Positions 1-36,541 of a stretch of 36,541 nucleotides of DNA are shown piece after piece. The position numbers and the translations under genes were made by a program. This DNA is from Knoellia flava TL1 (lineage in GTDB: Bacteria > Actinomycetota > Actinomycetes > Actinomycetales > Dermatophilaceae): assembly GCF_000768675.1 (NCBI RefSeq), contig NZ_AVPI01000017.1, positions 1 through 36,541 of the forward strand, read 5' to 3'. The first letter of the stretch is position 1, and each line of letters begins with the position of its first letter. The notes below the pieces were generated by a model that made no database searches, was not told the DNA's origin, and was given only the letters and a program-made list of their open reading frames with translations.

Positions 1-109
1 ATCCTGTATGCCGTGGTGCGCCGTGGGTACGCCCGTCGCGAGCAGCGCGCCTTCCGGCACGCCGACCTGCTCGGGACCGCCGTCTCGCCGTGACAGCCAA
101 GCGAACAGG

Positions 110-3100
110 TCAGATGCCGAGCGAGCGGCGCTGCTCCGCGAACCGGTCGAGGAGGACGGCCATGCCCCACTCGCGGGCCAGCGCCTCTCCCCGGTCGGCC
201 GCGGAGCGCGCCGTCTCGACATCTCCCGCCGTCGCGAGCGCCATCGCGAGGAAGCAGTCAACCGGCCCTTGCAGGCTCGCGGTGCCGGCCACCGCCATGC
301 GCCCGCTGAGCGGAGCCAGCCGCGACGCGACCTGCCGCGCCAGCTCCACGTCGCCGACCGCCGTCGCTGCGATCGCCAACAAGGCAAGGTCCATAGACTC
401 GCTCCAGTCCTCGGTCGGCAGGCTCGTCCGGGACAGCAGATGCTCGACCCGCTCCCTGTCGCCGGTCACCGCAGAGAGGTGCAGCAACGGCGTGAGGGTG
501 ATGTCGTCGGTGCCGTTCGGGTCGGCCGCCGCCATCTGCTCGGCAAGGATCGCGGCTGCCGGCGGGTTCCACGCCGCGAGCACGTAGGCGATGCCGAACT
601 CGATGTAGTCGCTCGCCGGGATCGACATCGTCACCCCGGTGAGTCCGCGCAGCGAGTCGGCCGCCGCGGACGGGTCCTCACGACTGCGCAGGATGAGGAG
701 GTTGAGCTCGACGAAGCGCAGCGCGAACTCGACATAGGCGAGCCGTCGCCGCCGCGCGATCGCCAGGGCCGCCCCGCTCGCGCTCTCCCACGTCGCCCGG
801 TCGCCGGCCTCGACCGCCACGCTCGCCATCCCCGCGAGCGCGACCGCCTCGGCCGCCACGTCACCCGAGGCCCGGGCCGCCGCGACCTCCTCCTCCGACA
901 ACGCCCGCCGGACCCCCAGCGAGCGGCACCGCCACGAGGCGAGGTGCGCCGTCCGCGCCGCCCAGGCTAGCAGCGCCGGGTCCTCGAACCGCCGCGCCAG
1001 CGCCATCCCCTCGTCGACGAGCGCCCCGGCCTCCGCGTCCGACCCCGGCAGGTAGTAGAGCTGGGCCGCGAGCGCGAGCATGAGCGTGCACCGCTCCTGC
1101 GAGCCGCCGGGCTCGAGCCTGACGAGCGTGGCACGCAGGTCGTCGACGAGCTCGTGCTCGACCACGCCGTAGTCCATCGGCGTCCACACCGAGTAGCGCG
1201 TCAGCGCGGCCACCGCCTCCGCCACCCGCGCCGGGTCGTCGAGCGCGCGGGCGACCGCGACCGCGTCGACGACTGCCGCCACACCCTCCTGCCACATGCC
1301 CGCGCGGGCCGCGCTCTCGTTGAAACGCAGCAACAGGTCGAAGCGCTCGTATGCCGTCCCCTGCGGATCCGCTGCCTGCGCACCGAGCGCGGCGTGGAAG
1401 AGGTTCGCAGCCTCGACGTTGGCGAAGTCGTCGGCGGCCAGAGCGCCGGCCGCGGCGGCAGCGGGCCAGGCGCTCCCGGCATACAGGGGTCCGGCAGCGA
1501 GCCAGTGATGGGCGAGGTCGAAGGCGCGCTCCGCGGCGTTGATCGCGGACGAGGGTGCGGACTCGAGGGCGCGGGCGATGCGGGCGTGGGTGCGGGCCAC
1601 CCGACTCGGCGTCGTCATGGCGAGGATCGCGTCCCGCGTGAGGGCATGGTCGAAGGAGAGCAGGCCCTGCGTGCTGTGGAGGATGCCGGCCTCCTGCGCC
1701 GGCTCCAGCCGGTCGAGGAGCTCGTCGGGGTCGAGCTCGGCGACCCGGGCGAGCAGGAGTGGCGGGTGCTGGCGTCCCAGCGCTGCAGCCAGCAGCAGGA
1801 GGTCGCGGACCGGCTCGGGCAGGTCGGCGACCCGGTGGCGGACGACCGACTGGACGCTTTCGGGCACCTCGTCGTCGACCCGCCCGGACTGCTCGGCGAG
1901 GCGGGCCAGCTCGACGAGGAAGAAGGGGTTGCCGTCGGTCCGTGCCCGCCACGCAGCGACCACGTCGGGCTGGGCGTCGGCGCCGAGGATCGAGCCGACG
2001 AGGTCGCGCGCCTCGTCGTCGGCGAGACCGCCGAGCTCGAGGGTGGTGGCGCCGTGCCGGGCCAGGGCGGCGTCGAGCTCCGCACCCGCGGCGTCGCTGG
2101 TGGCTCGGCGGCTCGCGACGACAGCCACCCGGTCACCGGGACCGAGACTCGCGACGACCTGGGCTAGGCAGCGCATCGTCGGCGTGTCGGCCCAGTGAAG
2201 GTCGTCAAGGACGAGGAGCAAGCCGGTGTCCTGGGCCGCCTCGCGCAGGGTGCGGGCGATGGCGTCGTGCGCGGCGAAGGACCGCTCCGCTGTCGTGCCG
2301 TCGCTCGTGCCGTCGCTCGTGTCGCCGCTCGTGTCGCCGCGCGCCCCACTGCGGGAATCGTGAGCGGGCTCGGGTGGCGCCGGCAGGTCGAGCCGGGCGA
2401 GGAGCTGGCGCCACGGCCAGAGCGGTGGGGCGCCCTCGTCCGCCGAGCACGTGCCGACGGCTGCGGCCATGCCGCGCGCCGTCGCCTCGGCCACTGCCCA
2501 CTCGATGAGGCGCGACTTGCCTGCACCGGCCTCACCGACGAGGCGGACCGCGGCCGGCCGACCGGCGACAGCGTCGTCGAGCAGCTGCCGGAGGACCTCG
2601 CGCTCGCGAGTCCGGCCCACGATCGGGCGCTCGTCCCAACCGAGAGGCACAGACCCGCGGGTGCCTCGACTCGGCGGCGCGAGTGGAGGATCACCGGGAC
2701 CGGGGCCCCTGCGATCCTCCACTCGGGCCTCCCGACTCGGCGAGACCGAACCGTTCGCGAGCCAGCCGCGCAAGACTGCCGGATCCTGCTGCAGGAGAGC
2801 GGTCTCGAGGTCGCGCACCTCCTGTCCCGGGTCGAGGCCGAGCTCGTCGTCGAGCACCCGCCGCAATCGACGGATCGCGTCGAGCGCCTCGGCCTGGCGT
2901 CCGGCACGGGCCAGGGCCAGCGCGTGCAGCGCCCAGCCCCGCTCGCGCAGGGGGTCACGCGTCGTGGCCTGCTCGGTCAGGGGCAGCACCGTCGCGTGCT
3001 CCCCAAGCGCGAGGAGCCCGAGCGCGAGGTCGTCGCTCGCGGTCGTGCGCAGCCCCTCGAGGCCGGTGCGCTCGGCGAGGACGTCGGGGTGGTCGGTGAG

Positions 3101-3586: not shown

Positions 3587-3593
3587 CCCGGTC

Positions 3594-3599
3594 ACGCTA
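3594..3599 (-). promoter_or_regulatory. -10 box TAGCGT of the SARP gene
   Basis: On the minus strand TAGCGT is followed by seven bases and then GTG at 3586. This spacing places transcription initiation at or next to the start codon, as in leaderless actinobacterial genes. No Shine-Dalgarno sequence precedes this GTG. No clear -35 box was seen. Confidence 0.45.
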
Positions 3600-3684
3600 C
3601 TGACGCGCGTGCGCTGCCGGAGGCGGTTCGGCGCAGCCAGCGACACTCAAGCCGGACCCAAGCCGCGGCCGCGACCGTGGTGAC

Positions 3685-4179
3685 ATGACCAGATCTCTCG
3701 GCCCCCGCCTCCTCGACCGCTCCCCGAACCCTGCTCGTATGCCGGCCCACGCCGAGCGTGCGACCCGCGCCCGTCCTTCGGCCGCGCTCGACCGGAGCGT
3801 CCTCCACGCCGTCGTCGCGCTCGCCGCGGTCTCGGTCGGCGGCGCGCTCGTCTCGGTCGCGGGTGGCCTCGCCGACAGCCTCTGGGACGCGATGGGTCCG
3901 ACCGGCCGCCTGTCGATCCCGGTGCCGATGATGCTCGGGCAGCTCGTCGCGGCGTGGTTCGCCTCCGGTCGACGACGCCGACCGGCCCTCGTCGCGAGCG
4001 CACTCCTGGCGCTCGTCGCACCCGTGTGCATCGTCTCGGGCTTCTTCGACGGCGGCTACTCGGACCCGGCACGGACAGGTGCGCACACGGCATACCAAGC
4101 GGTTCTCGTCACGATGCTCGCCGTCGTGGGAGTTCTCGCTGCGCGGAGGTTCATGCGGCTGCGGACGAGACGAGCGTGA
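3685..4179 (+). CDS. Small integral membrane protein, unknown function
   Basis: 164 residues with a basic N-terminal tail of about 35 residues, then four hydrophobic segments (around 38-60, 72-92, 97-117 and 131-151) and a basic C-terminal tail ending RRFMRLRTRRA. No catalytic motif is visible and I do not recognise the family. It starts 98 bp from the divergent SARP gene, so the two may share a control region. The ATG at 3685 has only a weak GGTG upstream. An ATG at 3739 would shorten the tail without affecting the membrane part. Confidence 0.7.
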   Translation: MTRSLGPRLLDRSPNPARMPAHAERATRARPSAALDRSVLHAVVALAAVSVGGALVSVAGGLADSLWDAMGPTGRLSIPVPMMLGQLVAAWFASGRRRRPALVASALLALVAPVCIVSGFFDGGYSDPARTGAHTAYQAVLVTMLAVVGVLAARRFMRLRTRRA

Positions 4180-4816: not shown

Positions 4817-5740
4817 TCAGTCGGTCGGGTGCGGGGCAGCGCTGACGGCGCGTCGGCGCTCGAACCAGCGCTCGAGCTCGGCCAGGGCCTCGGGGTCGAG
4901 CGCCTGCTCGGGGTCGGCCACGATGTCGCGTTGGATGCGTTCGCGCGCCACGGCATACATCGGTCCGCCCATCGCGTACTCGAGGTTGCGGGCGTACCAA
5001 GGCTTGAAGTGCCGCGCACCCAGGCTCTGGATGGCCCACGCGAGAAGGCCCGGCCTGCCCCGGCGGGCCCAGAAGCCGACCGCGAGGCTCAGGACCCACG
5101 CGACTGCCAGCGCGAGGCCCATGACGCCGAGGGTGGCGGCGATCTCGTCGCTGCCGAAGTTGTCGAGGACGCTGCGCAGGTCGGCGTAGATCCTGCGCAC
5201 GACGGGGTCCTGGAGGTTGAGCTGCGAGATGAAGGCCTCCGCGTCCTGCGCCCGGGTCTCGAGGTCCTCGATGGACTGCAGCGAGGGCCTGCCCGCCCAC
5301 GCCGCCTGGACGTGCTGCTTCACCTGCGGGACGGACTCGAAGACGTTCGTGGGTCGGATGCCGAGGAGTGCGTCCTTGGCCGCGGTGACCTCGTCGTAGG
5401 TCGTGCTGATCTGCCGAACAGTTTCCGAGCTCCGCTGGACCGCGGCGTCGAGCTGCTCGGGGTCGGGTGCGTTGTCACGCGCGTAGTCGAGGGTGGCCTG
5501 GATCTGCTCTCGGTGATCGACGAGGTACTTCGCCTGGCCCAGCCGCTCGCTGAGGTTGGGCACGGCGTGGACCGCGTCGTAGGCCTTGCCGCCCAGCGTC
5601 TCCGAGCTGCTCAGCGCCACGCTGAGGGCCGCCGCCGCTCCGTAGGCCTTGAGCAGGAAGGCGACGACCGCGCCGAGGACGCGGCGGGCGAGCTCCTCGG
5701 GGCGGCGGTAGAGGGGCAGGCCCTTCGCGACGGACGACAT
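4817..5740 (-). CDS. Membrane-anchored hypothetical protein
   Basis: About 307 residues from the ATG at 5740, which has GGAG ten bases upstream; an in-frame ATG at 5761 lacks a good ribosome site. A hydrophobic segment near residues 20-45 and a second near 200-225 frame a mostly helical region. That region contains heptad-like stretches (ERLGQAKYLVDHREQIQATL, and around the VRQISTTYDEV segment) suggesting a coiled coil. After the second membrane segment comes a basic, Trp-rich stretch (RHFKPWYARNLEY) and an acidic helical tail. I do not recognise the family. The topology suggests an extracytoplasmic helical domain tethered at both ends. The lipoprotein gene 69 bp upstream on the same strand may be co-transcribed. 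Confidence 0.75.
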   Translation of the reverse strand: MSSVAKGLPLYRRPEELARRVLGAVVAFLLKAYGAAAALSVALSSSETLGGKAYDAVHAVPNLSERLGQAKYLVDHREQIQATLDYARDNAPDPEQLDAAVQRSSETVRQISTTYDEVTAAKDALLGIRPTNVFESVPQVKQHVQAAWAGRPSLQSIEDLETRAQDAEAFISQLNLQDPVVRRIYADLRSVLDNFGSDEIAATLGVMGLALAVAWVLSLAVGFWARRGRPGLLAWAIQSLGARHFKPWYARNLEYAMGGPMYAVARERIQRDIVADPEQALDPEALAELERWFERRRAVSAAPHPTD

Positions 5741-5809
5741 GGTGGACTCCAGGTTTCGCATGGTCTCTGGCGGTGGAAGCGTAGGCCCGAGACCGACCGG
5801 ATCCGCCGG

Positions 5810-7301: not shown

Positions 7302-7367
7302 TCCCGCAGGCTACGCACGACCACCGTCACCCGACCGGAGCCAACCAGACCCGACCGACCCCACAGA

Positions 7368-7407
7368 CGCGCGTATGCCGTGGAGCCGGCTTCACGGCAT
7401 ACGCGCG
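7368..7407. terminator. Perfect hairpin built from two GTATGCCG copies
   Basis: CGCGCGTATGCCGTG and its exact complement form a 15-bp stem with a ten-base loop. It lies 21 bp beyond the stop codon of the dehydrogenase gene (minus strand), so it can terminate that transcript. Each arm contains one copy of the dispersed 8-mer found throughout the window. Confidence 0.8.
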
Positions 7408-7428
7408 CCTTGCGGGAGGGGGACGACC

Positions 7429-8181: not shown

Positions 8182-8284
8182 GCTGTGCTCCTTCGGTGGT
8201 GGGCTGCTCCATTCAGTCAAGACCTGACGGCGACGCGGCGACAGGGACCTACGACCCGGCCCGGACCGGCCGGGCCAGCCCGGC

Positions 8285-8290: not shown

Positions 8291-8323
8291 CGGAGGACGT
8301 CGAGCGAGAGGACTGCACGAGCG

Positions 8324-8773
8324 ATGAGCATCCGCGACAACGGACCCGAGCCCAACGCCTTCGACATCGAGGCCGCGACGAAGGCGAACACGACCTACCG
8401 CACGGTCGCGTGGACCGGCCGCTACCTCCAGGTCACCCTCATGTCGATCCCCGTCGGCTCGTCGATCGGCCTCGAGGTCCACCCCGAGACCGACCAGTTC
8501 CTGCGCATCGACGCCGGGCAGGGCACCTTCCGCGTCGGCCCGAGCGAGGACGACCTCACCGACACCGACGTCGGCGACGGCTGGTCGATCCAGGTCCCCG
8601 CCGGCCACTGGCACGACGTCGTCAACACCGGTGACGAGCCCCTCCAGCTGTATGCCGTCTACGCACCGTCGCACCACGCGCAGGGCAAGGTGCACGAGAC
8701 GGCCGAGGACGCCGAGCGCGACGAGGAGTCCGGCGGGGACGAGCCGCCGGAGTGGACCGTCCAGCCCGGCTGA
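8324..8773 (+). CDS. Single-domain cupin protein
   Basis: 149 residues. Cupin motif 1 is GLEVHPETDQFLRIDAGQG (a reduced G-x5-H-x-E pattern with His, Glu and a later Asp/Gln) and motif 2 is VPAGHWHDVVNTGD, with two His able to bind metal. This matches stand-alone cupins annotated as mannose-6-phosphate isomerase-like. The fold would form a small beta-barrel binding Mn, Fe or Zn. The C-terminal 25 residues are acidic and probably disordered. The enzymatic activity is not predictable. The gene is followed 38 bp later by a GNAT gene with its own leaderless-type promoter. Confidence 0.88.
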   Translation: MSIRDNGPEPNAFDIEAATKANTTYRTVAWTGRYLQVTLMSIPVGSSIGLEVHPETDQFLRIDAGQGTFRVGPSEDDLTDTDVGDGWSIQVPAGHWHDVVNTGDEPLQLYAVYAPSHHAQGKVHETAEDAERDEESGGDEPPEWTVQPG

Positions 8774-8799
8774 GCCCAGCGCCGCTGCCGTGCAGGCGC

Positions 8800-10029: not shown

Positions 10030-10821
10030 GTGAAGCCCAGCGCCGACGTCTTCGACCTCTTCGCCGTGCCGCCCGACGCCGTGCGCCTCGACGGCGGACA
10101 GGGTCACAGCGTCCTCGCCGGCGATCTCGTCCTCTCCCCGGGGCGCGACCCGCGGACGGCCACCTGGCTCAACCCCGTCCTCGCCCGGCTCGCCGCCGAG
10201 CTCGACAACGAACGCCCCCGCACCCTGCGCCTCGCCATGCCGATCCCGACCCGTGACGGCCGCTGGGTCGTCGACGGCTGGGCTGCCAGCCGCTACGAAC
10301 CGGACACGACGCACTGCCGCGACCTCCACGTCCTCCGCGCCACGGCCCACCTCCTCCACGCGCGACTCGCGGCGCGCATCACGACGCGACCGGACGGCAT
10401 ACGGGATCGCGACGACCGCTGGGCCAGAGCGGAACGCATCGCGTTCGGCGAGAGCCAGCCCGGCAACATCCCCAACGCCGTGGCGCCGCTCGTCGCCCGC
10501 ATCCTCGCCGAGCTCGACGCGACCCCCCTCGGACCCGAGCAGCTCGTCCACGGCGACGTCGCCGCGAACGTCCTCCTCGACGCGGACGGCGTGCCGCTCG
10601 TCATCGACGTCGCGCCCTACTGGCGGCCGCTCCGGTGGGCCGACGCGGTCTGCGTCCTCGACGCCGTCGTCGAGCACGGCGCCGACCCGTCCGCGATGCG
10701 CGCCCACGCGACCGGCGCCGACCGCCAGGCCATGCTGCGCGCCTCCCTCTTCCGCCTCCTCAGCGACGAGGACCCCGACATCGAGGCGCACCGGCACGCC
10801 CTCGAGTCCGGACCGCTCTGA
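10030..10821 (+). CDS. TIGR02569-like phosphotransferase-fold protein
   Basis: 263 residues. The C-terminal half has the aminoglycoside-phosphotransferase-type catalytic loop VHGDVAANVLLDADG followed by a metal-binding-like PLVIDVAPYWRP segment. The N-terminal half shows the LDGGQGHSVLAGDLVLSP and DGRWVVDGWAASRYEP segments characteristic of TIGR02569, a single-copy actinobacterial family of unknown role. The catalytic loop reads HGDVAANVL, so Asp and Asn are retained, as required for phosphotransfer. The substrate is unknown. The frame starts at a GTG placed six bases after a -10 box. The gene ends 87 bp before a convergent membrane protein gene. Confidence 0.82.
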   Translation: MKPSADVFDLFAVPPDAVRLDGGQGHSVLAGDLVLSPGRDPRTATWLNPVLARLAAELDNERPRTLRLAMPIPTRDGRWVVDGWAASRYEPDTTHCRDLHVLRATAHLLHARLAARITTRPDGIRDRDDRWARAERIAFGESQPGNIPNAVAPLVARILAELDATPLGPEQLVHGDVAANVLLDADGVPLVIDVAPYWRPLRWADAVCVLDAVVEHGADPSAMRAHATGADRQAMLRASLFRLLSDEDPDIEAHRHALESGPL

Positions 10822-10850
10822 CGAACGAGCCCGTATGCCGGCCGCTCACC

Positions 10851-11460: not shown

Positions 11461-12615
11461 TCAGGACGCATCGGCCCTTTCGCCTAACTCCCGGGACCTC
11501 CGCCAAGCGTTGACGGCGTGGACCCGCCGGTTCTCGTGCGGGCCACCTGGCAGGTCGAGCTTGGTGAAGACCGAACGGAGGTGGGCGTCCACGGTGCGGT
11601 CCGAGACCACGAGCCGGTCCGCGATCCCGGCGTTCGACAGCCCTTGGGCCAGCAGCCCGAGCACCTCGACCTCTCGTGCGGTGAGCCCCTGGACCTGGAC
11701 CTCGGGGGAGTCGTCAGCCTGAAGCTCGACGACCAGCGCCCGGCTGCAGCCGAGGGCGACCGTCACGACGCCGGCATACATCCCGACGAGGACGAGCACG
11801 CCGGCTGTCTCTCGTGGAGCCATCGAACCCAGGGCGCCGCAGAGCATGACGAGGGCGGCACCGGACAACGCCGAGACCGCCACGAGGGCGAGCCGGCGGC
11901 CTGCGTCGTCGCCGTCGCGCCACGCCGCTCGGAGGGCCACGACCGGTCCGAGCAGCACCGTGGCGAGGAAGGCACTCATCACCGCGGCACCGATGATCTC
12001 GCCCGTGGGCCAGGGCACGAGGGCCGCGGCGGCCAACGGAGCGAAGTCGTCGAAGAAGAGCGCAAAGGCCACGGCAGCCGAGACCGCGAGGCCGACGACG
12101 GTCGCGACCCCGGCTCGCGACGCCCCCTTGCCGAGGCTTCTCACCGCCATGAGCGGCAGCACCGAGAAGGCGGTGAGCATCGGCAGGTGGGCCGTCCCGG
12201 CGAGGACGGCGACGGCCCAGGTCGCCCGGTCACCGGGCATCCACCACGAGGCGGCCACCGCCGCGCTCCAGACCAACGGATGGGCCAGCCCGAGGATCGC
12301 GAGGAGGATCAGCCCCTGGCGCCAGCGAACCCATCCCGGTTGCAGGAGGCGCGTGGTCCGCAGCAGCAGGACCGACGTGACGACAGCACAGCCCCAGGTG
12401 ACGGGCGACGTGCCGGCGACGGAGCCGTCAGGAGGCCCTGCGACGCGCAGCGCCAGCACGGCACGACCCGAGGCGGCCGCCACACCCGCGACGGCCAGCA
12501 CGGTCCCACGGTCGTGGCCGGACCACCTCACTCCAGAAGTATGGGTCGGCGTCGGGTCACGGACCAGCAGTTCGGGCCGGATCGGGCGCGACACGAGGGC
12601 GCGCACTGTCGCCAT
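11461..12615 (-). CDS. Membrane-bound LuxR-type transcriptional regulator
   Basis: About 384 residues from the ATG at 12615; the frame is open further upstream and a GTG at 12531 is another candidate, so the N-terminus is unsure. The first 300 residues contain about eight hydrophobic segments (among them [37 protein letters not shown] and [13 protein letters not shown]). The C-terminal 65 residues are a LuxR helix-turn-helix ([42 protein letters not shown]). Tethering a LuxR DNA-binding domain to a polytopic membrane sensor implies regulation by a membrane signal without a kinase. There is no receiver domain. It is divergent from the anchored globin-like gene, a natural candidate target. Confidence 0.85.
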
Positions 12616-13588: not shown

Positions 13589-13599
13589 GCCCGCCCGCC

Positions 13600-13658
13600 G
13601 GCATACCCACAACGTCCGGCACGGTGACGACTTGGGCACCACAGTTGCGGACGCAAGC
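13600..13658. repeat. 59-bp intergenic repeat, copy A
   Basis: It matches copy B (16669-16727) at 51 of 59 positions in direct orientation with no gaps. It starts with the CGGCATAC motif and ends GCGGACGCAAGC. It lies between the convergent ends of the globin-like gene (13588) and the ada-alkA fusion (13706). Short inverted segments (CGTCCG near the left, CGGACG near the right) suggest a weak hairpin. Confidence 0.85.
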
Positions 13659-13705: not shown

Positions 13706-15283
13706 TCAGGCCACCAGCCGCCAGAGGTGGAGGGCGGCATAGCTGCGCCACGGGGTCGCGTCCGCGAGCACGGTCCCCGGAGTGCCGGCGCCCAAGGCGG
13801 TCGCCGCGTCGACGACGGCGCGGTCGGTGGAGAGGTCGACATCCGGATGGCCGTAGCCGCGCAGCAGGGTGTAGGCGATGGTCCAGCCGCCGACTCCCTT
13901 GACGCGGCGGAGGTCGTCGGCGACGTCGCTCGGGTCGCGCGCCGGGTCGAGGGCGCCATCGTCGGCGAGGCGCAGCGCATCACCGAGCGTCGCGCGCCGG
14001 GCGGCCGGACCACGGAAGCCCTCCAGCCCGCTCGCGAGCAGGGCCGCCGCGGTGGGGAAGGGACGCAGGGTGGCGCCGTCGTCATCGCCGCTGCCGAGCA
14101 CGAGGCGCTCGAGCTGCGCGCGACCGGCCGCGACGCTCACCTGCTGCCCGGTGAGTGCGCGCAGCAGCGCCTCGAGGGGGGTGGCCGCGCCCGGCAGACG
14201 GATGCCCGGCGTGGCGGCGACGAGTGGGTGGAGGGCCGGCAGCCCGCCCAGGTGCCCATCGACAGCGGCGGGGTCGGCGTCAAGGTCGAGCAGGCGCCGG
14301 AGCACGGCGCACGCCGGACCGTAGTCGCGCAGGTCCTCGAGGTCGAGGTCGGCCCGGACCCGTGAGCGGTCGGGGTCGTCGGCGAGGGTCGCGACTCCGG
14401 CGCCGTGGGGGAGGGCGAGCGCAAGGACATAGCTGCCCGCGTCGTTCGCGCTCCTCGTCACCCTGTCCGTGCCCGCCAGTGCGCGGACCTCGAACCACCT
14501 CAACAGTCCCGTCCAATCGAGGGGTGGCCGGTAGGCGAGCGTGGCACGCAGCGTTCCCGCGGCCAGGGCTGCTCCGCTGCCGTCCGGAGCGGTCGAGGCG
14601 CCGCGCTGAGCGGTCGACGCAGCGCCCGCCGCCGCGGTCGACGCGCTCGATCCACGCAGACGACTCGGGCTGGTGCCATAGATCGTGAGCACCGTGTCGT
14701 TGAACTGCCGCAGGCTCGAGAAACCCGCCGCGAACGCGATCGCCGAGAAGGGCTGGTCGGTGCCGGTGATGAGGGCGTGTGCGACGCGCGCCCGCCGCGC
14801 CCGAGCGTGGGCGATGGGGCTCGCGCCGGTGTGTTCGACGAGGAGCCGGCTCACGCTTCGGGTGGACCAGCCGAGGCGGCGGGCGAGCCCATTCACGCCC
14901 TCCTCGTCGACGACGCCCTGCTCGATGAGCTGCAGGGCACGGGCCGCGACACTGCCGGGGATGTTCCACCAAGGGCTGCCCGGCAGCGCCTCGGGGACGC
15001 AGCGGCGGCACGCCCGGTAGCCCGACGACTGTGCGGCCGCCGCGGAGGGATAGAAGGTGACGTTGCGGGCGTGCGGCTTGCGGGCCGGGCACGAGGGACG
15101 GCAGTAGATGCCGGTCGTGTGGACGGCGGTGTAGAAGGTGCCGTCGAAGCGGCGGTCACGCCCGGTGATGGCGGCATACATCGCGTCGAACCCCAGCCCG
15201 GCGCCCCTGACCTGCGTGGAACCCGGCGAGGTCGACGAGCCGAGCTGCGGGTCGTCGAGGGCGTTCGCGGTCTGTGTCGTCAC
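13706..15283 (-). CDS. Ada-AlkA fusion: methyl-phosphotriester sensor plus 3-methyladenine glycosylase
   Basis: 525 residues from GTG at 15283 with GAGGAG five bases upstream. Domains in order: an Ada zinc domain (about 33-98) with Cys61, Cys65, Cys92 and Cys95, where Cys61 in YCRPSC would be the methyl acceptor; an AraC-type double helix-turn-helix (about 108-205); an Ala/Ser/Thr-rich linker; an AlkA N-terminal domain (about 240-330); and an HhH-GPD glycosylase with TGQQVSVAAGR, then VKGVGGWTIAYTLLRGYG and a candidate catalytic Asp in VDLSTD. The fusion senses DNA alkylation through its N-terminus and excises 3-methylpurines through its C-terminus, as in known actinobacterial AdaA-AlkA proteins. 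Its start overlaps the stop of the upstream MFS gene (GTGA). Confidence 0.93.
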   Translation of the reverse strand: MTTQTANALDDPQLGSSTSPGSTQVRGAGLGFDAMYAAITGRDRRFDGTFYTAVHTTGIYCRPSCPARKPHARNVTFYPSAAAAQSSGYRACRRCVPEALPGSPWWNIPGSVAARALQLIEQGVVDEEGVNGLARRLGWSTRSVSRLLVEHTGASPIAHARARRARVAHALITGTDQPFSAIAFAAGFSSLRQFNDTVLTIYGTSPSRLRGSSASTAAAGAASTAQRGASTAPDGSGAALAAGTLRATLAYRPPLDWTGLLRWFEVRALAGTDRVTRSANDAGSYVLALALPHGAGVATLADDPDRSRVRADLDLEDLRDYGPACAVLRRLLDLDADPAAVDGHLGGLPALHPLVAATPGIRLPGAATPLEALLRALTGQQVSVAAGRAQLERLVLGSGDDDGATLRPFPTAAALLASGLEGFRGPAARRATLGDALRLADDGALDPARDPSDVADDLRRVKGVGGWTIAYTLLRGYGHPDVDLSTDRAVVDAATALGAGTPGTVLADATPWRSYAALHLWRLVA

Positions 15284-16524: not shown

Positions 16525-16668
16525 TGGCGGAAATCGGCCAGCACGGTGGACCGGTCAGGGCAGCGTGAGCGGGGTACCCTCCCTCGGCGACGGCGAGCGC
16601 CGGCGCGAAGCCGAACTTCGCGTTTACTGCCAGAAGACGTCCGCGGACGCAAGCAGTCGGGAGCGGAC

Positions 16669-16727
16669 GGCATACCCGCAACGTCCGGCACGATGACGAC
16701 CTGACCCCCACAGGTGCGGACGAAAGC
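16669..16727. repeat. 59-bp intergenic repeat, copy B
   Basis: Direct copy of the element at 13600-13658 with eight mismatches, beginning with the same CGGCATAC motif. A further fragment, GCGGACGCAAGCAG, lies just upstream at 16643-16656 and is also found in copy A at 13647-13660. The element touches the stop codon of the CsoR/CstR-like gene on one side. The two copies bracket the MFS/Ada-AlkA block. Confidence 0.85.
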
Positions 16728-16728
16728 G

Positions 16729-19754
<3,026 letters not shown>

Positions 19755-24150: not shown

Positions 24151-24254
24151 GTGAGCCGTCCCAGTGTGCCGCACGCACCCCGCGTCCTCCAAACCGGATC
24201 GGGTATGCCGTGCGCCCCGGTTCCCGTCGGTCTCGCGGCCCGCTCCGGGCGGGA

Positions 24255-24286: not shown

Positions 24287-24976
24287 TCAGGATCCGATGG
24301 CGGCGACCAGCTGGTCGCGGGCGTCGGCGAGGTAGGCGCGCAACGCCTCCGCGGCGGCGGGTCGTCCCTCGTCGACGAGCAGCCGGACGATCTCGGCGTT
24401 GCGGTCGAGGTAGGGCTCGTGGAACCCGGGGTCGTTCTTCATGAGGTGGAAGACGAGGCGCATCTCGGCGAGCGCCCCCTCCATGAGCTGGTCGATGCGG
24501 CGACTGGCGGCCAGCCGCACGATCGCGCGGTGGAACTCCTGGTTGGCCTGGGCGACCGCCGCGACGTCACCTGCGTACCGAGCCACGCGGGCCGTCTCGA
24601 CGACCTCCGAGAGGCGGGCGGGGGTGTCGTCCAGGAACCCCGGCCCGTGCTCGAGGGCGCCGGGCTCGATCGCGAGGCGGGCGGCATACAGGTCGTGGAT
24701 GTCGCCCTCGGTCGGGGTCGCGACGAAGACGCCCCGGTTGGGCTCGCGCACGACGAGGCGCTCCGCGGCGAGCAGGGCGAAGGCCTCGCGGATCGTGTTG
24801 CGCGAGAAGCCGAGCGCCGTGCTGATGGTGTCCTCGGTCAGCCGCGTCCCGGAGCGCAGCGCACCGTCGACGATCTGCTCGCGCAGGACGTTGCCGACCC
24901 TCTCGGCCGCGGAGGGCACGACGGTGCGGTCCGCCGGGATGCGGTGGAGGGCCTCGGCGAGGACGCTGTTGGTCAC
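24287..24976 (-). CDS. GntR-family regulator, FCD subfamily
   Basis: 229 residues. The N-terminal winged helix (about 20-88) includes RVGNVLREQIVDGALRSGTRLTEDTISTALGFSRNTIREAFALLAAERLVV. The C-terminal all-helical FCD domain (about 95-220) keeps the metal-site pattern Asp/His (the HDLYAARLAIEP, EFHRAIVRLA and RNAEIVRLL segments). Such proteins bind a carboxylate effector and usually control the adjacent catabolic operon. Here that is the divergent transporter-pxpABC operon, so 5-oxoproline or a relative is the natural effector candidate. The GTG start lies six bases after a TACAGT -10 box and has no strong ribosome site, suggesting a leaderless message. Confidence 0.9.
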   Translation of the reverse strand: MTNSVLAEALHRIPADRTVVPSAAERVGNVLREQIVDGALRSGTRLTEDTISTALGFSRNTIREAFALLAAERLVVREPNRGVFVATPTEGDIHDLYAARLAIEPGALEHGPGFLDDTPARLSEVVETARVARYAGDVAAVAQANQEFHRAIVRLAASRRIDQLMEGALAEMRLVFHLMKNDPGFHEPYLDRNAEIVRLLVDEGRPAAAEALRAYLADARDQLVAAIGS

Positions 24977-27887: not shown

Positions 27888-28762
27888 GCGGCGTCATGAA
27901 CCGCGCCGTCGAGGTGCTGGCCCCCGGTCCGATGACCCTGCTCCAGGACCTGGGCCGCTTCGGTCACCTCGCCGTCGGCGTCGGCCGGGCCGGCGCGGCC
28001 GACGCCGGCTCCTACCTGCTCGGCAACCGGTTGCTCGGCAACGCCAGCGGAGCCGCTGCCCTCGAGGTCACGATGGGCAACCTGCGCCTGCGTGCCTCGG
28101 GCGACCTGCTCGTCTGCCTCACAGGCGCCGCCGCACCTGCGAGCGTCGACGGCCGCCCCGTGCCGCGCGCGGCCCTCGTCGAGGTCCGCCACGGCCAGGA
28201 GCTCTCCCTCGGTATGCCGGTCGCCGGGCTGCGCACCTACGTCGCGGTCCGCGGCGGCTTCTCCGTGCCGGAGGTGCTCGGCTCGGTCTCGTCGGACACG
28301 ATGTCCGGGCTCGGGCCCGAACCCGTGCGTGCCGGTCAGGTGCTCCCCGTCGGCGACCGCACCGAAGGCTTCCCCGTCGTCGACGTCGCCGGCGTCGCCG
28401 AGCCGTCGACGGGCACCGTCACCCTCGACGTCCTGCCCGGCCCGCGCCTCGACTGGTTCGCGGACCCGGAGCGTCTGGCACAGACGCCGTGGTCGGTCTC
28501 GTCCCGCAGCGACCGCAAGGGCATCCGCCTCGAGGGTGAACCGCTCGAGCGCCACGCCGAGCTGCGCGACGCCGAGCTCCCGAGCGAGGGCATGGTCCGG
28601 GGCGCGATCCAGGTGCCACCGAACGGACAGCCCGTCGTCTTCCTCAACGACCATCCGGTCACCGGCGGCTACCCCGTCATCGGCGTGCTGCGCTCCGCCT
28701 CCGTCGACCGAGCAGCCCAGCTCCAGCCCGGCCAGGAGGTCCGGCTTCGCTGGAACCTCTGA
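27884..28762 (+). CDS. pxpC: 5-oxoprolinase subunit C (KipA/biotin-dependent carboxyltransferase-like)
   Basis: 292 residues, one AHS2 domain. Typical segments are VLAPGPMTLLQDLGRFGHLAVGVGRAG near the start, LLGNASGAAALEVTMGN, GLRTYVAVRGGF and the C-terminal HPVTGGYPVIGVL. The GTG at 27884 overlaps the pxpB stop (GTGA); an ATG at 27896 is an alternative. The domain is related to the carboxyltransferase part of urea amidolyase and acts in the PxpBC complex to activate 5-oxoproline with ATP. It is the last gene of the operon. The GntR regulator and transporter upstream complete the module. Confidence 0.94.
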   Translation: MSGVMNRAVEVLAPGPMTLLQDLGRFGHLAVGVGRAGAADAGSYLLGNRLLGNASGAAALEVTMGNLRLRASGDLLVCLTGAAAPASVDGRPVPRAALVEVRHGQELSLGMPVAGLRTYVAVRGGFSVPEVLGSVSSDTMSGLGPEPVRAGQVLPVGDRTEGFPVVDVAGVAEPSTGTVTLDVLPGPRLDWFADPERLAQTPWSVSSRSDRKGIRLEGEPLERHAELRDAELPSEGMVRGAIQVPPNGQPVVFLNDHPVTGGYPVIGVLRSASVDRAAQLQPGQEVRLRWNL

Positions 28763-28903: not shown

Positions 28904-30148
28904 TCAGGGCCGGGTGAGCGCCTCGACCGCACGACCGACACCGTCCTCGGCTCGGATCGCCGCTCCCACCACCGCTGCTCGCTCGGCCGACACCCCTCGG
29001 GCGAACCCTCGGAGCACCTCCGTGAGCCACTCGACCGACAGCTCGTGCCGGCGCACGGGCCGGGCCCCGACGCCGAGCTCCCACACACGCCGGCCCCAGT
29101 AGGGCTGGTCCCCGATGTGTGCCACGACCGCCTGCGGCACGCCCGCCCGCAGCGCCGCCGCCGTCGTCCCCGCACCTCCGTGGTGCACGACTCCGGCCGT
29201 CCGGGGGAGGAGCCACCCGTGCGGCACGCTGCCGACGGAGTGGACCCACGTGTCGTCGTGCGAGGCCAGCCCCGCAGACCCGGAGTGCAGCACGACCCGC
29301 ACCCGTGCGGCCCGCGCCGCGACCGCGACGAGCTCGCCCAGGTGCCGCGCCTCGCTCGTCGACATCGACCCGAATCCGACGTATGCCGTGCGCCGACCCT
29401 CGCCGACCCATGTCGCCAGCGCGTCGTCCGGCACGAACCCGGGGTCGTCGTCGAGGAACCAGTAGCCCGTCACCTCCGGGTCGCCGTGCCAGTCCGGAGC
29501 CGGAGGCACGACGAGCGGCGACGCGGCGAGCAACGCGGGGGTGCGGCGCATCGCGTCGAGCATGCCGCGCGTCCCGGTGGCCGGGAGCCCGAGCTCGCGA
29601 CGGACCTGGTCGCCGGGCGGGGCGAAGACCGACGCCACCGTGGCCTGGAGCACCTGCGCCGCAAGGACGTTGAGCACCGAGGACCTCCGCGGCAGCACCG
29701 GCTGGAGCCCCGCCGTCCCCTCTCGCGTGGGCCGCACCGGAGCGAACTCGGTGCTCACGTGGCGCCCACCTCCGGCGGACGCCAAGGCATCCGCGGCGTG
29801 GACGGTGAGCATCCCGCTCACCCACAGGTCCGCCGAGCCGACGAGCGGGAGCCAGGCGCCGGCATACTCCTCGACGGTCGAGCGCACGAAGCGGCGCAGC
29901 GCCGCGAGCTCGTGCCACGGGCTGCGGCTCGACTCCCCGAGCCAGGCGACGCCGAGCGGCGAGGCGATGAGCTCCTCGATCCGGACGCCCGCGGGTGCGA
30001 AGCCGACACCGTGCGAGGTCACCAGCGGCTCGAAGTCGTCGCCGGCGCAGACCGTCACCTCGTGCCCGGCGCGCTGCAGGCCGACGCCGAGGGCGACCAT
30101 CGGCTGCACGTCCCCTCGCGACCCGGCCGCGAGGATGTTGACCCTCAC
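28904..30148 (-). CDS. GT1-family glycosyltransferase (UGT/vancosaminyl type)
   Basis: 414 residues, GT-B fold. The N-terminus RVNILAAGSRGDVQPMVALGVGLQRAGHEV is the acceptor-domain signature of this family. The C-terminal sugar-nucleotide binding region has VVHHGGAGTTAAALRAGVPQAVVAHIGDQPYWGRRV. A VGFGSM motif opens the second Rossmann half. It should transfer a sugar from a nucleotide donor to a hydrophobic acceptor (polyketide, sterol or lipid); the acceptor is unknown. The GTG at 30148 overlaps the stop of the NYN gene (GTGA), so the two are coupled. No biosynthetic cluster for an obvious acceptor is nearby. Confidence 0.9.
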   Translation of the reverse strand: MRVNILAAGSRGDVQPMVALGVGLQRAGHEVTVCAGDDFEPLVTSHGVGFAPAGVRIEELIASPLGVAWLGESSRSPWHELAALRRFVRSTVEEYAGAWLPLVGSADLWVSGMLTVHAADALASAGGGRHVSTEFAPVRPTREGTAGLQPVLPRRSSVLNVLAAQVLQATVASVFAPPGDQVRRELGLPATGTRGMLDAMRRTPALLAASPLVVPPAPDWHGDPEVTGYWFLDDDPGFVPDDALATWVGEGRRTAYVGFGSMSTSEARHLGELVAVAARAARVRVVLHSGSAGLASHDDTWVHSVGSVPHGWLLPRTAGVVHHGGAGTTAAALRAGVPQAVVAHIGDQPYWGRRVWELGVGARPVRRHELSVEWLTEVLRGFARGVSAERAAVVGAAIRAEDGVGRAVEALTRP

Positions 30149-31239
30149 GTGAGGCGGATCCGACCGACGTGGTGCCAGAACCGCTCTCGCACACCGTGTC
30201 TCGCCGCGTCGTCGATGTCGTAGGCCCCCGACCGGCTCGACAGGTCGAGCAGCAGCGCGCGGTCGAGCTCGCCGGGCACGGTCGGCTGCGCGGCCCGGAG
30301 CTCGGCGAGCGACGCGGGCGTGGCGGTGCGGCACCACGACGACACGACGGCATACGCGACGGCGTCCCAGAGACCGGGACCCGACTCCGTCCCCGGCCCG
30401 GTCGTCGCGGTGAGCGGCTCCGGCAGGACCACCTCGCTCGCCCGCTTGCGTCCCAGCACGGCGGGCGACGGCACAGGTATGCCGGCCGGTTCTGCCTGCG
30501 GCACAGGCTCGCTCGCGTCGGCCTCACCGCTGGCAGACGTGGCGTCACCGACGTCCGCGGTGTCGGGTTCGGGCGCGGAAGGCGTGGCGCCGGGCACCGT
30601 CTCGTCCGTGGCGTCGTCCGAGGGAGCACCGATCTCGTCGACCGCGGCGTCCTCCTCGCCCAGGCTCGCCACGAGACCGGGTGCGAGCGCCCGCGAGCGC
30701 ACGCACGTGTCGACGGTCTCGAGGTCGATGAGGAGCTCGTCGTCGACGGCCCGGCGCAGGTGCTTCGAGACGGCGTGCGAGGTGCCGTTGACCCCCGGCA
30801 CGGAGAGCAGGCGCACCTGCACACCGGCGCCCTGGGCCTCCTCGACCGCCTCGGTGAGGTCGTCGTCGCCGGAGACGAGGTAGACGACGTCGGCGACACG
30901 GGCGCGGCCGTGGAGGGCGAGGTCGAGCCCGAGCCGGACGTCGACGCCCTTCTGCTCTCCGGCGTAGGAGAGGCGCCCGAGGCGGAGCTTGACCTTGGGC
31001 AGGAGGCCGATCTGGTCCTGGTGGTGGTCGGGCTGGCCGCCGGGGCGGGAGCCGGAGTCGTACCAGTTGACGCGCAGGACCGGGAGCCCCGAGTCCGCCT
31101 CGACCTGCTCGACGAGCCGGCTCACGAGACCGGGGTAGTCGACCTCGATGCCGCTGCGCAGCGACGACCCGGTGACGCGCGTCGCGGCGGACGCGAGGAG
31201 GTAGCCGACGTCGACATAGACCGCGCACCAGGAGCTCAT
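30145..31239 (-). CDS. NYN-domain (PIN-like RNase) protein
   Basis: 364 residues. The N-terminal NYN/LabA-type domain (about 1-165) has AVYVDVGYLL, then GVDVRLGLDLALHGRARVADVVYLVSGDDDLTEAVEEAQGAGVQV. The acidic residues expected to hold Mg at a PIN-type nuclease site (Asp in VDVGY, Asp in VDVRL, Asp-Asp in SGDDDL) are present. A disordered Ala/Pro/Glu/Asp-rich linker (about 215-270) precedes a helical C-terminal domain with WDAVAYAVVSSWC. It probably cleaves or binds RNA in the cytoplasm. Start and stop overlap with its neighbours (ATGA with the MerR gene, GTGA with the glycosyltransferase gene). Confidence 0.88.
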   Translation of the reverse strand: MSSWCAVYVDVGYLLASAATRVTGSSLRSGIEVDYPGLVSRLVEQVEADSGLPVLRVNWYDSGSRPGGQPDHHQDQIGLLPKVKLRLGRLSYAGEQKGVDVRLGLDLALHGRARVADVVYLVSGDDDLTEAVEEAQGAGVQVRLLSVPGVNGTSHAVSKHLRRAVDDELLIDLETVDTCVRSRALAPGLVASLGEEDAAVDEIGAPSDDATDETVPGATPSAPEPDTADVGDATSASGEADASEPVPQAEPAGIPVPSPAVLGRKRASEVVLPEPLTATTGPGTESGPGLWDAVAYAVVSSWCRTATPASLAELRAAQPTVPGELDRALLLDLSSRSGAYDIDDAARHGVRERFWHHVGRIRLT

Positions 31240-32025: not shown

Positions 32026-32586
32026 ATGAGCGAGCAGCACCCGACCGACGCGGCCACCGACGCACGCGTCGCGCACACGACCCACGCCTGGGAGGGCGAC
32101 GTCGTCGTCTTCCACATCGGGATGACGATCCGCAAGCCACACCGCCTCGACCTGTGGTTGCCGGTCCTCGCCGCGATGCCGAAGATGCTCGCCGAGCTCG
32201 AGCGCAACAGGGCAGCGGCTGCGCGCGGCGAGGAGGAGGACCTCGGGTTCCTCGGCGCGCGCACGCTGATCGGCGGTCGCGGCCCGTGGGTCGTGCAGTG
32301 GTGGCGCAGCACCGAGCAGCTCTACGCCTACGCGCGGATGGCCGACCGAGCGCACCTCCCGGCCTGGCGCGCCTTCAACACCGCTGCCCGTCGCTCACCC
32401 GGCGCGGTCGGCATCTGGCACGAGACGTATGCCGTCCCCGCCGGTTCCGTCGAGACCATCTACGGCAACGGGGCGACCGTGGGCCTGGGCGCGATCACCG
32501 GGACGGTCCCCGTGACCCGTCGAGGGCGGACGGCGAGGGAGCGGCTCGGCCGCCGCGTCGTCGGCGGCACCGTCGCCGACGGCTGA
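32026..32586 (+). CDS. DUF4188 (monooxygenase-like) protein
   Basis: 186 residues. It carries the DUF4188 pattern: VVVFHIGMTIRKPHRLDLWLPVLAAMPKML, then VVQWWRSTEQLYAYARMADRAHLPAWRAFN, and GAVGIWHETYAVPAGSVETIYGN with conserved His and Glu. The fold is a ferredoxin-like dimeric alpha-beta barrel. Members are annotated as monooxygenases or phenylacetaldoxime dehydratase-like, but the activity is unproven. The C-terminal 20 residues are basic. ATG with GGAGG upstream. It is controlled by the divergent MerR gene through the overlapping operator. Confidence 0.87.
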   Translation: MSEQHPTDAATDARVAHTTHAWEGDVVVFHIGMTIRKPHRLDLWLPVLAAMPKMLAELERNRAAAARGEEEDLGFLGARTLIGGRGPWVVQWWRSTEQLYAYARMADRAHLPAWRAFNTAARRSPGAVGIWHETYAVPAGSVETIYGNGATVGLGAITGTVPVTRRGRTARERLGRRVVGGTVADG

Positions 32587-32662: not shown

Positions 32663-35164
32663 ATGACGACCCCTGCCCTCGGCACCCCCTGGCAGACACG
32701 AGCGGACGCCGGTGCCGAGTCGCTCGACGACGCCACCCTCGACCGCATCCACCGGTGGTGGCGTGCGGCCAACTACCTCTCGGTCGGGCAGATCTACCTG
32801 CTCGACAACCCCCTGCTGCGCCAGCCGCTGCACAAGGACCACGTCAAGCCACGGCTGCTCGGCCACTGGGGCACGACTCCGGGCCTCAACTTCCTCTATG
32901 CGCACCTCAACCGCGCGATCGACGAGCGCAAGCAGTCGACGATCTACATCACCGGTCCCGGGCACGGTGGTCCCGGCCTCGTCGCCAACACCTACCTCGA
33001 GGGCACCTACTCCGAGACCTACCACGACATCACCGAGGACGAGCCGGGCCTGCAGCGGCTCTTCAAGCAGTTCAGCTTCCCGGGCGGCATCCCCTCGCAC
33101 GTCGCCCCCGAGACGCCCGGCTCGATCCACGAGGGAGGTGAGCTCGGCTACGCCCTCTCGCACGCCTACGGCGCCGCGCTCGACAACCCGGACCTCCTCG
33201 TCCTCGCGGTCGTCGGCGACGGCGAGGCCGAGACCGGTCCGCTCGCGACGAGCTGGCACGCCAACAAGTTCGCCAACCCGGCGACCGACGGCGTCGTCCT
33301 GCCGGTCCTGCACCTCAACGGCTACAAGATCGCCAACCCGACCGTCCTCGCCCGGATCGGGCACGACGAGCTCGAGTCGCTCATGGTCGGCTACGGCCAC
33401 AAGCCGTACTTCTTCAAGGCCGGGTTCGACGACGAGGCACCCGAGAGCTACCACCGGCGCTTCGCCGAGCTGCTCGACGAGGTCCTCGACGAGATCGCCG
33501 CGATCAAGGCCGCCGCCGCGAGGGCGGGCGCCGACGAGGTCGAGCGGCCCCGCTGGCCGATGATCGTCTTCGAGCACCCCAAGGGCTGGACCGGACCCAA
33601 GCAGATCGACGGCAAGCCGACCGAGGGCCACTGGCGCAGCCACCAGGTGCCGCTCGCGAGCGCTCGCGACACCGACGAGCACCTGAAGGACCTCGAGGAC
33701 TGGCTCCAGTCGTATGCCGCGGACGAGCTCTTCGACGAGGCCGGCCGCCTCCACGACGACATCGCCCGGCTCGCCCCCGAGGGACAGCTGCGCATGGGTG
33801 CCAACCCCCATGCCAACGGCGGCCTCCTCAAGGTGCCGCTCCGGCTGCCCGACTTCCGTGACTTCGCCGTCGAGGTCGACTCCGAGGCCCGCGGCGCCGC
33901 GATGGCCGAGGCCACCCGAGTCCTCGGCACGTGGTTCGCGTCCGTCATGGAGGCCAACCCCGAGAACTTCCGGATCTTCGGCCCGGACGAGACCGCCTCG
34001 AACCGGCTGGGCGGGGTCTTCGACGTCACCGCGAAGCAGTGGAACGCGGCATACGAGCCGTTCGACGAGGCCGACCCTATGCGCAAGGTGGGCAAGGTCC
34101 TCGAGATGCTCAGCGAGCACCAGTGCCAGGGCTGGCTCGAGGGCTACCTGCTCACCGGGCGCCACGGGATGATGAGCAGCTACGAGGCCTTCATCCACAT
34201 CGTCGACTCGATGTTCAACCAGCACGCCAAGTGGCTCAAGGTCACCAACCACATCGAGTGGCGGCGGCCGATCGCCTCGCTCAACTACCTGCTCAGCTCG
34301 CACGTGTGGCGCCAGGACCACAACGGCTTCAGCCACCAGGACCCCGGCTTCATCGACCACGTCGTCAACAAGAAGGCCGACATCATCCGGGTCTACCTGC
34401 CGCCGGACGCCAACACGCTGCTCTCGACGTGGGACCACCTGCTGCGCACCGACCAGTGCGTCAACGTCGTCGTCGCCGGCAAGCAGCCCGGGCCGACGTG
34501 GCTGACGATGCAGGAGGCGATCCACCACTGCACCCGCGGCCTCGGCGTCTGGGACTGGGCGGGGTCGGAGGGGCCTGGCGGTGAGTGCGACGTCGTCCTC
34601 GCGTGCGCGGGCGACGTGCCGACCGTCGAGGTCATGGCCGCGGCGCAGCTGCTCCGGGAGCACCTGCCCGAGCTCAAGGTGCGCGTCGTCAACGTCGTCG
34701 ACCTCATGCGGCTCCAGGACGAGACCGAGCACCCGCACGGCCTGAGCAACCGCGACTTCGACACGATCTTCACGCCCGACAAGCCGGTGATCTTCGCCTA
34801 CCACGGCTACCCGTGGCTCATCCACCGCCTCACCTACCGCCGCACCGGCCACGACAACCTCCACGTGCGCGGCTACAAGGAGGAGGGCACGACGACGACG
34901 CCGTTCGACATGGTCATGCTCAACGACCTCGACCGCTTCCACCTCGTCATCGACGTCATCGACCGCGTGCCCGGGCTCGGGCCACGCGCCGCCGGGCTGC
35001 GACAGCGGATGCAGGACAAGCGGTTCGAGGCGCGGGCGCACGCGACGACCCACGGCGAGGACCTGCCCGAGGTGCGCGACTGGGTGTGGGCCGACGTCGG
35101 CGAGACGGGCACCGCGCAGGGCGGCCCGAACGCGACCCAGCTCACCGGCGGCGACAACGACTAG
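32663..35164 (+). CDS. xfp: Phosphoketolase (xylulose-5-phosphate/fructose-6-phosphate)
   Basis: 833 residues, slightly longer than typical (about 790-825) because of a Gly/Asn-rich tail. The N-terminal XFP domain has [24 protein letters not shown], the GPGHGGPG substrate loop, and the thiamine diphosphate/Mg motif [19 protein letters not shown] with NGYKIANP. The middle contains [11 protein letters not shown], and the C-terminal domain [19 protein letters not shown]. The enzyme cleaves ketose phosphates to acetyl phosphate plus an aldose phosphate. No acetate kinase or phosphotransacetylase gene is adjacent. The gene appears monocistronic, with its own -10-like box. Confidence 0.97.
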
Positions 35165-35999: not shown

Positions 36000-36044
36000 C
36001 GCTACGGCAACCAGACCGTCGACGCCACGCCAGGAGGTGCGCCC

Positions 36045-36541
36045 ATGGGACTGTTCGACCGCATGGAGGGCAGGCTCGAGCGTGCCGTCAACGGCGTCTT
36101 CGCCAAGGCCTTCCGCTCCGAGGTGCAGCCCGTCGAGATCGCGAGCGCGATCCGCCGGGCCATGGACGACCGCGCCGCGACCGCAGGCTCCGGTCGCAGC
36201 CTCGTCCCCAACGTCTTCACGATCGAGCTGAGCGAGACCGACTACGAGCGCCTCACCGACCACGGGGTCGAGCTCGAGAACGAGCTCGTCGCCGCCGCCG
36301 AGGAGCACGCCGACAGCCAGCACTACCAGCCCGGCGGCCCGATCGACATCCACTTCGACGAGGACGCCGACCTCGAGACCGGCGTCTTCCGCGTCCGCCC
36401 CAGCACCGCGAAGCGCCCGCGCGCGACCGGCATGACGGGCCAGCACCGGGCCGTCCCGCGTTCCCGTGAGGACAGCCCGTATGCCGGCCGCCCACCCGCC
36501 GCTTCGGGTGCCGGTGGCGCTGCGGCCGGCGCTGCCGCGGG
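36045..36541 (+). CDS. fhaA: FhaA, DUF3662/FHA-domain protein (partial, runs off the window)
   Basis: The first 165 codons are visible. MGLFDRMEGRLERAVNGVFA and FRSEVQPVEIASAIRRAMDDRAA are the start of the DUF3662 domain that begins FhaA proteins. It is followed by LVPNVFTIELSETDYERL and by GGPIDIHFDEDADLETGVFRVRP. Then comes a Gly/Ala/Pro-rich linker; the C-terminal FHA domain would lie past the edge. FhaA binds phosphothreonine on partners of the Ser/Thr kinases and, in mycobacteria, controls cell wall synthesis. ATG at 36045 with AGGAGG upstream. The following genes are probably fhaB, pstP, rodA, pbpA and pknAB. Confidence 0.92.
   Translation, partial: MGLFDRMEGRLERAVNGVFAKAFRSEVQPVEIASAIRRAMDDRAATAGSGRSLVPNVFTIELSETDYERLTDHGVELENELVAAAEEHADSQHYQPGGPIDIHFDEDADLETGVFRVRPSTAKRPRATGMTGQHRAVPRSREDSPYAGRPPAASGAGGAAAGAAA

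Follow-up and report, generated by a model that had tools for sequence, protein, structure and literature searches.

Why should a single word of eight bases occur 31 times in 36.5 kb of an actinobacterial genome, and what could keep it there? The stretch analyzed here, called the window below, comprises the 36,541 nucleotides of contig NZ_AVPI01000017.1 (positions 1 to 36,541, forward strand) of Knoellia flava TL1, and the word is GTATGCCG. An initial annotation made from the letters alone had counted 14 forward and 17 reverse copies; our recount of exact matches was identical, compared with a mean of 0.34 and a maximum of 3 in 100 dinucleotide shuffles. Its statement that every GTATGC runs on into CG was true for 31 of 31, and the flanks are otherwise free. 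Taken together, the sequence data suggest that GTATGCCG is probably the uptake sequence by which a naturally transformable family of actinobacteria recognizes its own DNA.

The excess extends to the whole source genome (G000; 3.56 Mb, 94 contigs), where the word occurs 1,268 times on the forward and 1,273 times on the reverse strand (2,541), versus 44 and 50 (94) for the reversed string, and the near-equal strand use reported for the window is found here as well. Against a third-order Markov model, 231 copies were observed where 10.9 were expected in 311 kb of G000, and 251 where 11.2 were expected in 400 kb of a single-contig genome of the same genus (G007), a 21- to 22-fold enrichment in these two Knoellia genomes. 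Variants differing by one base were much rarer in the same samples, the commonest being GGATGCCG with 58 copies in G000 and 53 in G007. The word has one clear extension, in that the base after it is seldom A (0.84 bits in G000, 0.33 in G007). Among octamers of equal composition (n = 1,680), one, GTCGTCGA with 36 copies, exceeds it in the window, where the others average 1.3. In 311 kb of G000, both GTCGTCGA (252) and TCGTCGAG (246) are more frequent than GTATGCCG (231), and neither is among the eight most deviant octamers listed under the third-order Markov model. GTATGCCG is not its own reverse complement, and an exact, short, non-palindromic word in genome-wide excess on both strands is the form an uptake sequence takes.

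Codon choice bends around the word. Using genes from a simple codon-score caller, we compared synonymous codons that complete the octamer with the same codons elsewhere. In G000, tyrosine is written as TAT in 85 of 98 positions where this completes the octamer, versus 76 of 1,421 elsewhere and 1 of 13 where only the last G of the octamer is missing. The corresponding counts in G007 are 83 of 92 in octamer context and 475 of 1,767 elsewhere. On the opposite strand, 57 of 88 octamer contexts in G000 have GCA, versus 1 of 123. Seven loci of GTATGCCG-low genomes gave 0/12 (TAT) and 0/19 in octamer contexts, and a second pool of nine such loci gave 1/17. This shows that a force acts on the exact eight bases through synonymous choice.

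The word is denser between genes than in them, at 1.18 versus 0.65 per kb in G000 and 0.77 versus 0.59 per kb in G007. Copies had been described as evenly spread, a loose description given that the spacing has a coefficient of variation of 1.23 over 260 kb and that a 27-kb region of G000 holds a single site (contig 1, 30273-57739; loci L035 and L036). This region has a lowered guanine-plus-cytosine (GC) content of 65-67%, starts near a tRNA-Thr, and carries a transposase with an integrase core as well as an open reading frame (ORF) of 1,475 amino acids with sub-threshold WD40-type matches. It is probably a genomic island, although its extent is unsure and genes close to its right end have host GC. 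Site conservation between related genomes, a comparison that the initial annotation had suggested, is high: among Knoellia genomes, 42 of 53 aligned sites were conserved versus 10-48% for octamers in general within matching identity bands, in a count whose entries are non-independent, as one site may count against several relatives. In 20 stretches (400 kb) of G007, with the replication origin inferred from GC skew, 125 copies point along the leading and 126 along the lagging strand, without the polarity of Chi or KOPS, and density shows no significant change with distance from that origin (Spearman -0.25, p 0.29). Of 31 close pairs (no more than 80 bp apart), 27 are inverted, and such pairs are in slight excess in G007 (19 versus 12.3 expected).

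All nine Knoellia genomes carry between 1,971 and 3,277 copies. We take the family studied to be Dermatophilaceae in the GTDB sense; NCBI taxonomy places Knoellia within Intrasporangiaceae. At least 100 copies per Mb, a threshold chosen after seeing the counts, were found in 108 of 186 family genomes and in 31 of 53 genera (maximum, 1,356 per Mb). Density was used instead of the ratio to the reversed string because that control is itself raised in some family genomes (578 versus 1,660 in G013). A survey of the order covered 34 genomes of the same family and 362 genomes of 19 other families; the 362 were at background, none of them, judged by eye, exceeding 180 copies or about 80 per Mb. On a tree of the competence protein ComEC, G000, G007, and Knoellia remsis form one clade with full support, and K. 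remsis ComEC is the closest to that of G000 among the named genomes scanned (73% identity). We take genus g27 to be Janibacter because Janibacter indicus groups with it on this tree. Tetrasphaera has been assigned to Dermatophilaceae (PMC9123174).

Some other genera of the family carry other words, which were picked from sampled loci and then counted across all 186 genomes. GGATGCCG reaches 3,816 and 3,838 copies in both g9 genomes, 3,949 in G178, 4,480, 3,619, 2,195, and 2,099 in four g15 genomes, and 1,210 and 1,336 in two g46 genomes, with 241-1,239 in the remaining family genomes. GAATGCCG occurs 3,135 times in G055, alongside 1,025 copies of GTATGCCG; the next highest counts are 730 (G054) and 388 (G057), and other family genomes have at most 352. 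CGAAGGGG is present in 1,198-2,588 copies in 16 of 16 g27 genomes and in 2,589-3,180 copies in three of three genomes of the sister genus g35, with at most 396 elsewhere in the family. GTATGCCG does not rise above background in g27, g35, or G178, whereas G044 and G045 have both GTATGCCG and GGATGCCG. At least one of the four words passes the threshold in 132 of the 186 genomes. The core G.ATGCCG is common to GTATGCCG, GGATGCCG, and GAATGCCG, and CGAAGGGG is without it. On the ComEC tree (43 rows; a single gene, with 9 of 40 inner branches weak), the CGAAGGGG genomes group in a single clade, and the GGATGCCG genomes, of which five were included, fall into two separate ones.

Codons follow each lineage's own word, as far as the test covered them (GTATGCCG, GGATGCCG, and CGAAGGGG). 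GAT in GGATGCCG context was found in 15/22 versus 18/1,159 cases in G178, 6/7 versus 14/252 in G026, and 15/27 versus 60/742 in g15, and GAA in CGAAGGGG context in 12/23 versus 66/2,048 in g27 and 17/23 versus 48/2,723 in g35. TAT in GTATGCCG context is at 0/3 and 0/8 in g27 and g35; in g15, which has both words, it is at 6/9. Counts by genus, the ComEC tree, and the codon test thus agree on lineage-specific words, as expected of uptake sequences. Two further candidates were not accepted as dialects. GTAGCCC in G016 has 22 of 33 copies in one reading phase. GTACGCCG exceeds expectation 4- to 7-fold in certain GTATGCCG-free genomes (loci L215, L225, L235, and L245; G088 and G023), perhaps driven by codon use or as an older dialect, but one locus each of Kribbella and Actinopolymorpha is about equally dense in it. 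A scan of 40-80 kb from each of 20 of the remaining low genomes gave no clear word beyond those named. The nine copies of AACGGCAA in three 400-bp bins of L206 (G153) are a local repeat.

Genes for a DNA uptake channel are widespread in the family. A ComEC domain is encoded in 180 of 186 genomes, and comEA adjoins comEC in G000 and in 33 of 34 loci, the remaining locus being cut by a contig end. Both proteins were found in 43 of 43 loci, octamer-high and octamer-low alike. In L048 of G083, a genome with no octamer, comEC (7066-11234) is seemingly split over two overlapping frames, perhaps through a sequencing error or because the gene is broken. PilM, a marker of type IV pili, was detected in 7 of 186 genomes, strongly in one (ComP itself was not searched for); as it is nearly absent, no ComP-type reader is expected, and we rejected a type IV pilus as the reader. 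Tad-type T2SSF genes occur in each of 60 selected genomes, half of them rich and half poor in GTATGCCG (30 each), and G017 has a tadABC-flp-tadEFG cluster beside an FtsK/SpoIIIE gene, similar to tad-1 of Micrococcus luteus. TadB of the tad-1-like type was found in 162 of 186 genomes. In L281 (G178), a tad-1-like cluster has no detectable flp, tadE, tadF, or tadG and a low-scoring tadC; a similar cluster lies in L205 (G184), a genome low in the counted words. We rejected the idea that genomes are high or low in the word according to whether they have ComEC, ComEA, or Tad genes, since all of these occur on both sides.

Several other explanations must be considered for such a word. If codon or dinucleotide bias, or a single dispersed repeat family, had produced it as a side effect, it would be no surprise that an equal-composition octamer such as GTCGTCGA is as frequent or that 2 of the 31 window sites lie in a dispersed intergenic repeat. 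However, the Markov and shuffle expectations, the reversed-string control, and the free flanks refute this, as do rare codons that are used in octamer context and seldom elsewhere, and we give it practically no credence. The chief rivals are a methyltransferase target, considered below, and a Chi-like signal for recombination or repair, which a helicase-nuclease would read and which would persist because it directs the repair of the chromosome it lies on. Chi sites are non-palindromic, about eight bases long, over-represented, and variable between lineages, and a helicase-nuclease could change its specificity and so create dialects. Chi of Escherichia coli is strongly oriented with replication, whereas GTATGCCG is balanced between leading and lagging strands, and neither the near-saturation of codons (85/98) nor the bias toward inverted pairs would be expected of such a signal. 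We consider this role unlikely, and the lack of replication bias led us to reject polar motifs (Chi and KOPS) as such.

Methyltransferases usually turn over fast, unlike one word abundant in 31 genera, and an asymmetric contiguous octamer offers them no palindrome. It is rather improbable that GTATGCCG is the conserved target of an orphan DNA methyltransferase, as has been proposed for HIP1 of cyanobacteria, even though HIP1 abundance is linked with orphan methyltransferases (PMC4390886) and a screen of M. luteus on com expression and transformation gave mutations in an N6-adenine methyltransferase gene, target unknown (PMC8467076). The binding site of a chromosome-organizing or nucleoid protein might also be found genome-wide, on both strands, and at a density with no significant change by distance from the origin. 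However, known organizing motifs such as KOPS and matS are polar or confined to a domain, and such proteins as a rule tolerate mismatches, whereas one-base variants are far rarer than the word itself; a role of this kind seems very unlikely to us.

The initial annotation had offered three kinds of iterated motif (uptake sequence, HIP1, and orphan methyltransferase target) without choosing among them. As a non-palindromic word, GTATGCCG does not match HIP1, and an uptake sequence is favored. An asymmetric exact word with free flanks, no polarity, near-saturated codon contexts, a mostly inverted orientation of close pairs, poverty in a probable island, and lineage dialects, in genomes that carry com genes, unites in our analysis the features of an uptake sequence. 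A putative surface DNA-binding protein would prefer DNA bearing the octamer, and the preferred DNA would enter through ComEA/ComEC and then recombine. Because imported DNA would be enriched in the octamer, copies could spread and persist through biased transmission wherever the encoded protein tolerates them. A shift in the specificity of the reader would slowly rewrite the genome to a new dialect (GGATGCCG, GAATGCCG, or CGAAGGGG), and loss of competence would lead to decay of the octamer.

A number of observations weigh against an uptake sequence. Fifty-four of 186 genomes pass the threshold for none of the four words, nine of them with 40-100 copies of GTATGCCG per Mb, and Com and Tad genes are also present in genomes without the motif. 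G000 has no more close pairs within 80 bp than chance predicts (12 versus 13.3 expected), their orientation alone being biased. TadB of the tad-1-like type was not found in 24 of 186 genomes, including the octamer-rich G000, G002, and G117 and the incomplete G100; by elimination G120, G121, G123, and G181 also belong to these 24, and three of these four are octamer-rich. Flp-TadEFG was not found beside TadABC in G178, with its 3,949 copies of GGATGCCG. For these two reasons the octamer can apparently be maintained without a tad-1-like pilus, barring a very recent loss of the pilus in every case. We also looked for alignment columns with one residue that is uniform across the two GGATGCCG branches and present in no more than 10% of GTATGCCG rows; there was none in ComEA or ComEC and none in tad-1-like TadA, TadB, TadC, Flp, TadE, TadF, or TadG. 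ComEA position 92 (G000 numbering) and ComEC column 397 are nearly specific to CGAAGGGG genomes (6 of 7) but say little because these genomes form one clade.

Comparison with known systems gives both likenesses and differences. The DNA uptake sequence (DUS) of Neisseriaceae has eight dialects with a shared core and occurs in inverted pairs, and Simonsiella muelleri holds two dialects (PMC3630211). The words described here are similarly short, non-palindromic, and abundant, with mostly inverted close pairs and lineage dialects, and two of them coexist in G044, G045, and G055. Unlike the DUS of 10 or more bases, however, they have eight and belong to a monoderm high-GC phylum; CGAAGGGG shares no core with the others; and the near absence of PilM differs from Neisseria, in which the reader is ComP, a minor pilin of the type IV pilus. 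The uptake signal sequence (USS) of Pasteurellaceae is of more than one type within the family and has longer AT-rich flanks. More than one type of short over-represented word is likewise found here, but as octamers, GTATGCCG having no clear extension beyond the next-base bias. The USS is a 9-bp word linked to competence (PMC1626085). HIP1 is also a high-copy octamer that is low in some relatives, but it is a palindrome, GCGATCGC, linked to orphan methyltransferases, whereas GTATGCCG is asymmetric (PMC4390886). Closer in taxonomy is M. luteus, whose competence relies on Flp/Tad pili and ComEA/ComEC (PMC4322843, PMC8467076). This actinobacterium likewise has a ComEA-ComEC pair and a tadABC-flp-tadEFG cluster, with an FtsK/SpoIIIE gene by tad-1 (PMC8467076) that has its counterpart by the G017 cluster. 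Unlike M. luteus, some octamer-rich genomes here lack a tad-1-like cluster or have only part of it, and the term "uptake sequence" does not occur in the excerpts of those two papers.

The initial annotation knew of no such element in this group, in keeping with the open-licence literature: among the titles and abstract starts listed, none described an uptake sequence in actinobacteria, and the matches listed for the octamer as an exact string were unrelated by title. A single search of the same literature turned up no relevant title on transformation in these genera. On balance, we lean toward regarding this as the first uptake-sequence system of monoderms, with at least four words in one actinobacterial family and a putative novel kind of receptor, which would not be a ComP-like type IV pilin and, as the evidence stands, not ComEA or a tad-1-like pilin either. 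Its specificity would have switched several times, twice independently to one word on the ComEC tree. Sequence-specific DNA uptake is textbook knowledge for two Gram-negative families; if our reading is true, it has arisen again in a phylum with a different envelope and pilus. It would also point to natural transformation in many genera, including relatives of Tetrasphaera-type phosphorus accumulators, and would suggest how these genera limit recombination to kin. The dialect shifts may serve as natural experiments toward finding the reader.

The window sites are listed in Table 1. The initial annotation had placed eight copies between genes; our number is similar, with 9 outside genes, 1 at a gene edge, and 21 inside, one of the nine being unsure in its placement.

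Table 1. Exact copies of GTATGCCG in the window; genes from a simple codon-score caller
Position	Strand	Placement
6..13	+	outside called genes
1349..1356	+	inside gene 110-3646 (-), BTAD/AAA regulator
1477..1484	-	inside gene 110-3646 (-)
3737..3744	+	edge of called gene 3739-4179
4088..4095	-	inside called gene 3739-4179 (+)
4951..4958	-	inside called gene 4817-5761 (-)
7373..7380	+	intergenic; left arm of inverted pair with 7395..7402
7395..7402	-	intergenic; right arm of inverted pair with 7373..7380
8650..8657	+	inside called gene 8324-8773 (+)
10395..10402	-	inside called gene 10030-10821 (+)
10833..10840	+	intergenic
11772..11779	-	inside ORF 11461-12723 (-), LuxR-type regulator
13599..13606	-	intergenic, within dispersed repeat
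15172..15179	-	inside called gene 13706-15283 (-), Ada/AlkA domains
15573..15580	-	inside called gene 15280-16524 (-), MFS transporter
15708..15715	-	inside called gene 15280-16524 (-)
16668..16675	-	intergenic, within dispersed repeat
17944..17951	-	intergenic
20290..20297	+	inside called gene 20042-20851 (+), TauE/SafE
21930..21937	-	outside genes per caller, yet inside long ORF 20887-22818 (-); placement unsure
24203..24210	+	intergenic
24682..24689	-	inside called gene 24287-24976 (-)
28212..28219	+	inside called gene 27884-28762 (+), carboxyltransferase domain
29381..29388	+	inside called gene 28904-30148 (-), glycosyltransferase domains
29860..29867	-	inside called gene 28904-30148 (-)
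30348..30355	-	inside called gene 30145-31239 (-)
30477..30484	+	inside called gene 30145-31239 (-)
32427..32434	+	inside called gene 32026-32586 (+)
33712..33719	+	inside called gene 32663-35164 (+), phosphoketolase
34047..34054	-	inside called gene 32663-35164 (+)
36479..36486	+	inside called gene 36045-36539 (+)

Two other features of the window were observed. The dispersed intergenic repeat that holds two of the sites lies at 13593-13671 and 16643-16729; it is about 60-90 bp long, with the core CGTCCGGCA...GATGACG...TTGCGGACGCAAGC, and has many more copies across G000, some of them in tandem. At 17830-20851, an imperfect palindrome, GGGGTATTTGACAAATATACCCC, overlaps a perfect TACCCCCGGGGGTA box upstream of a small gene, a gene with a rhodanese domain, and a TauE/SafE exporter, an arrangement that we take to resemble a sulfur detoxification cluster under a regulator of the CsoR/CstR type.

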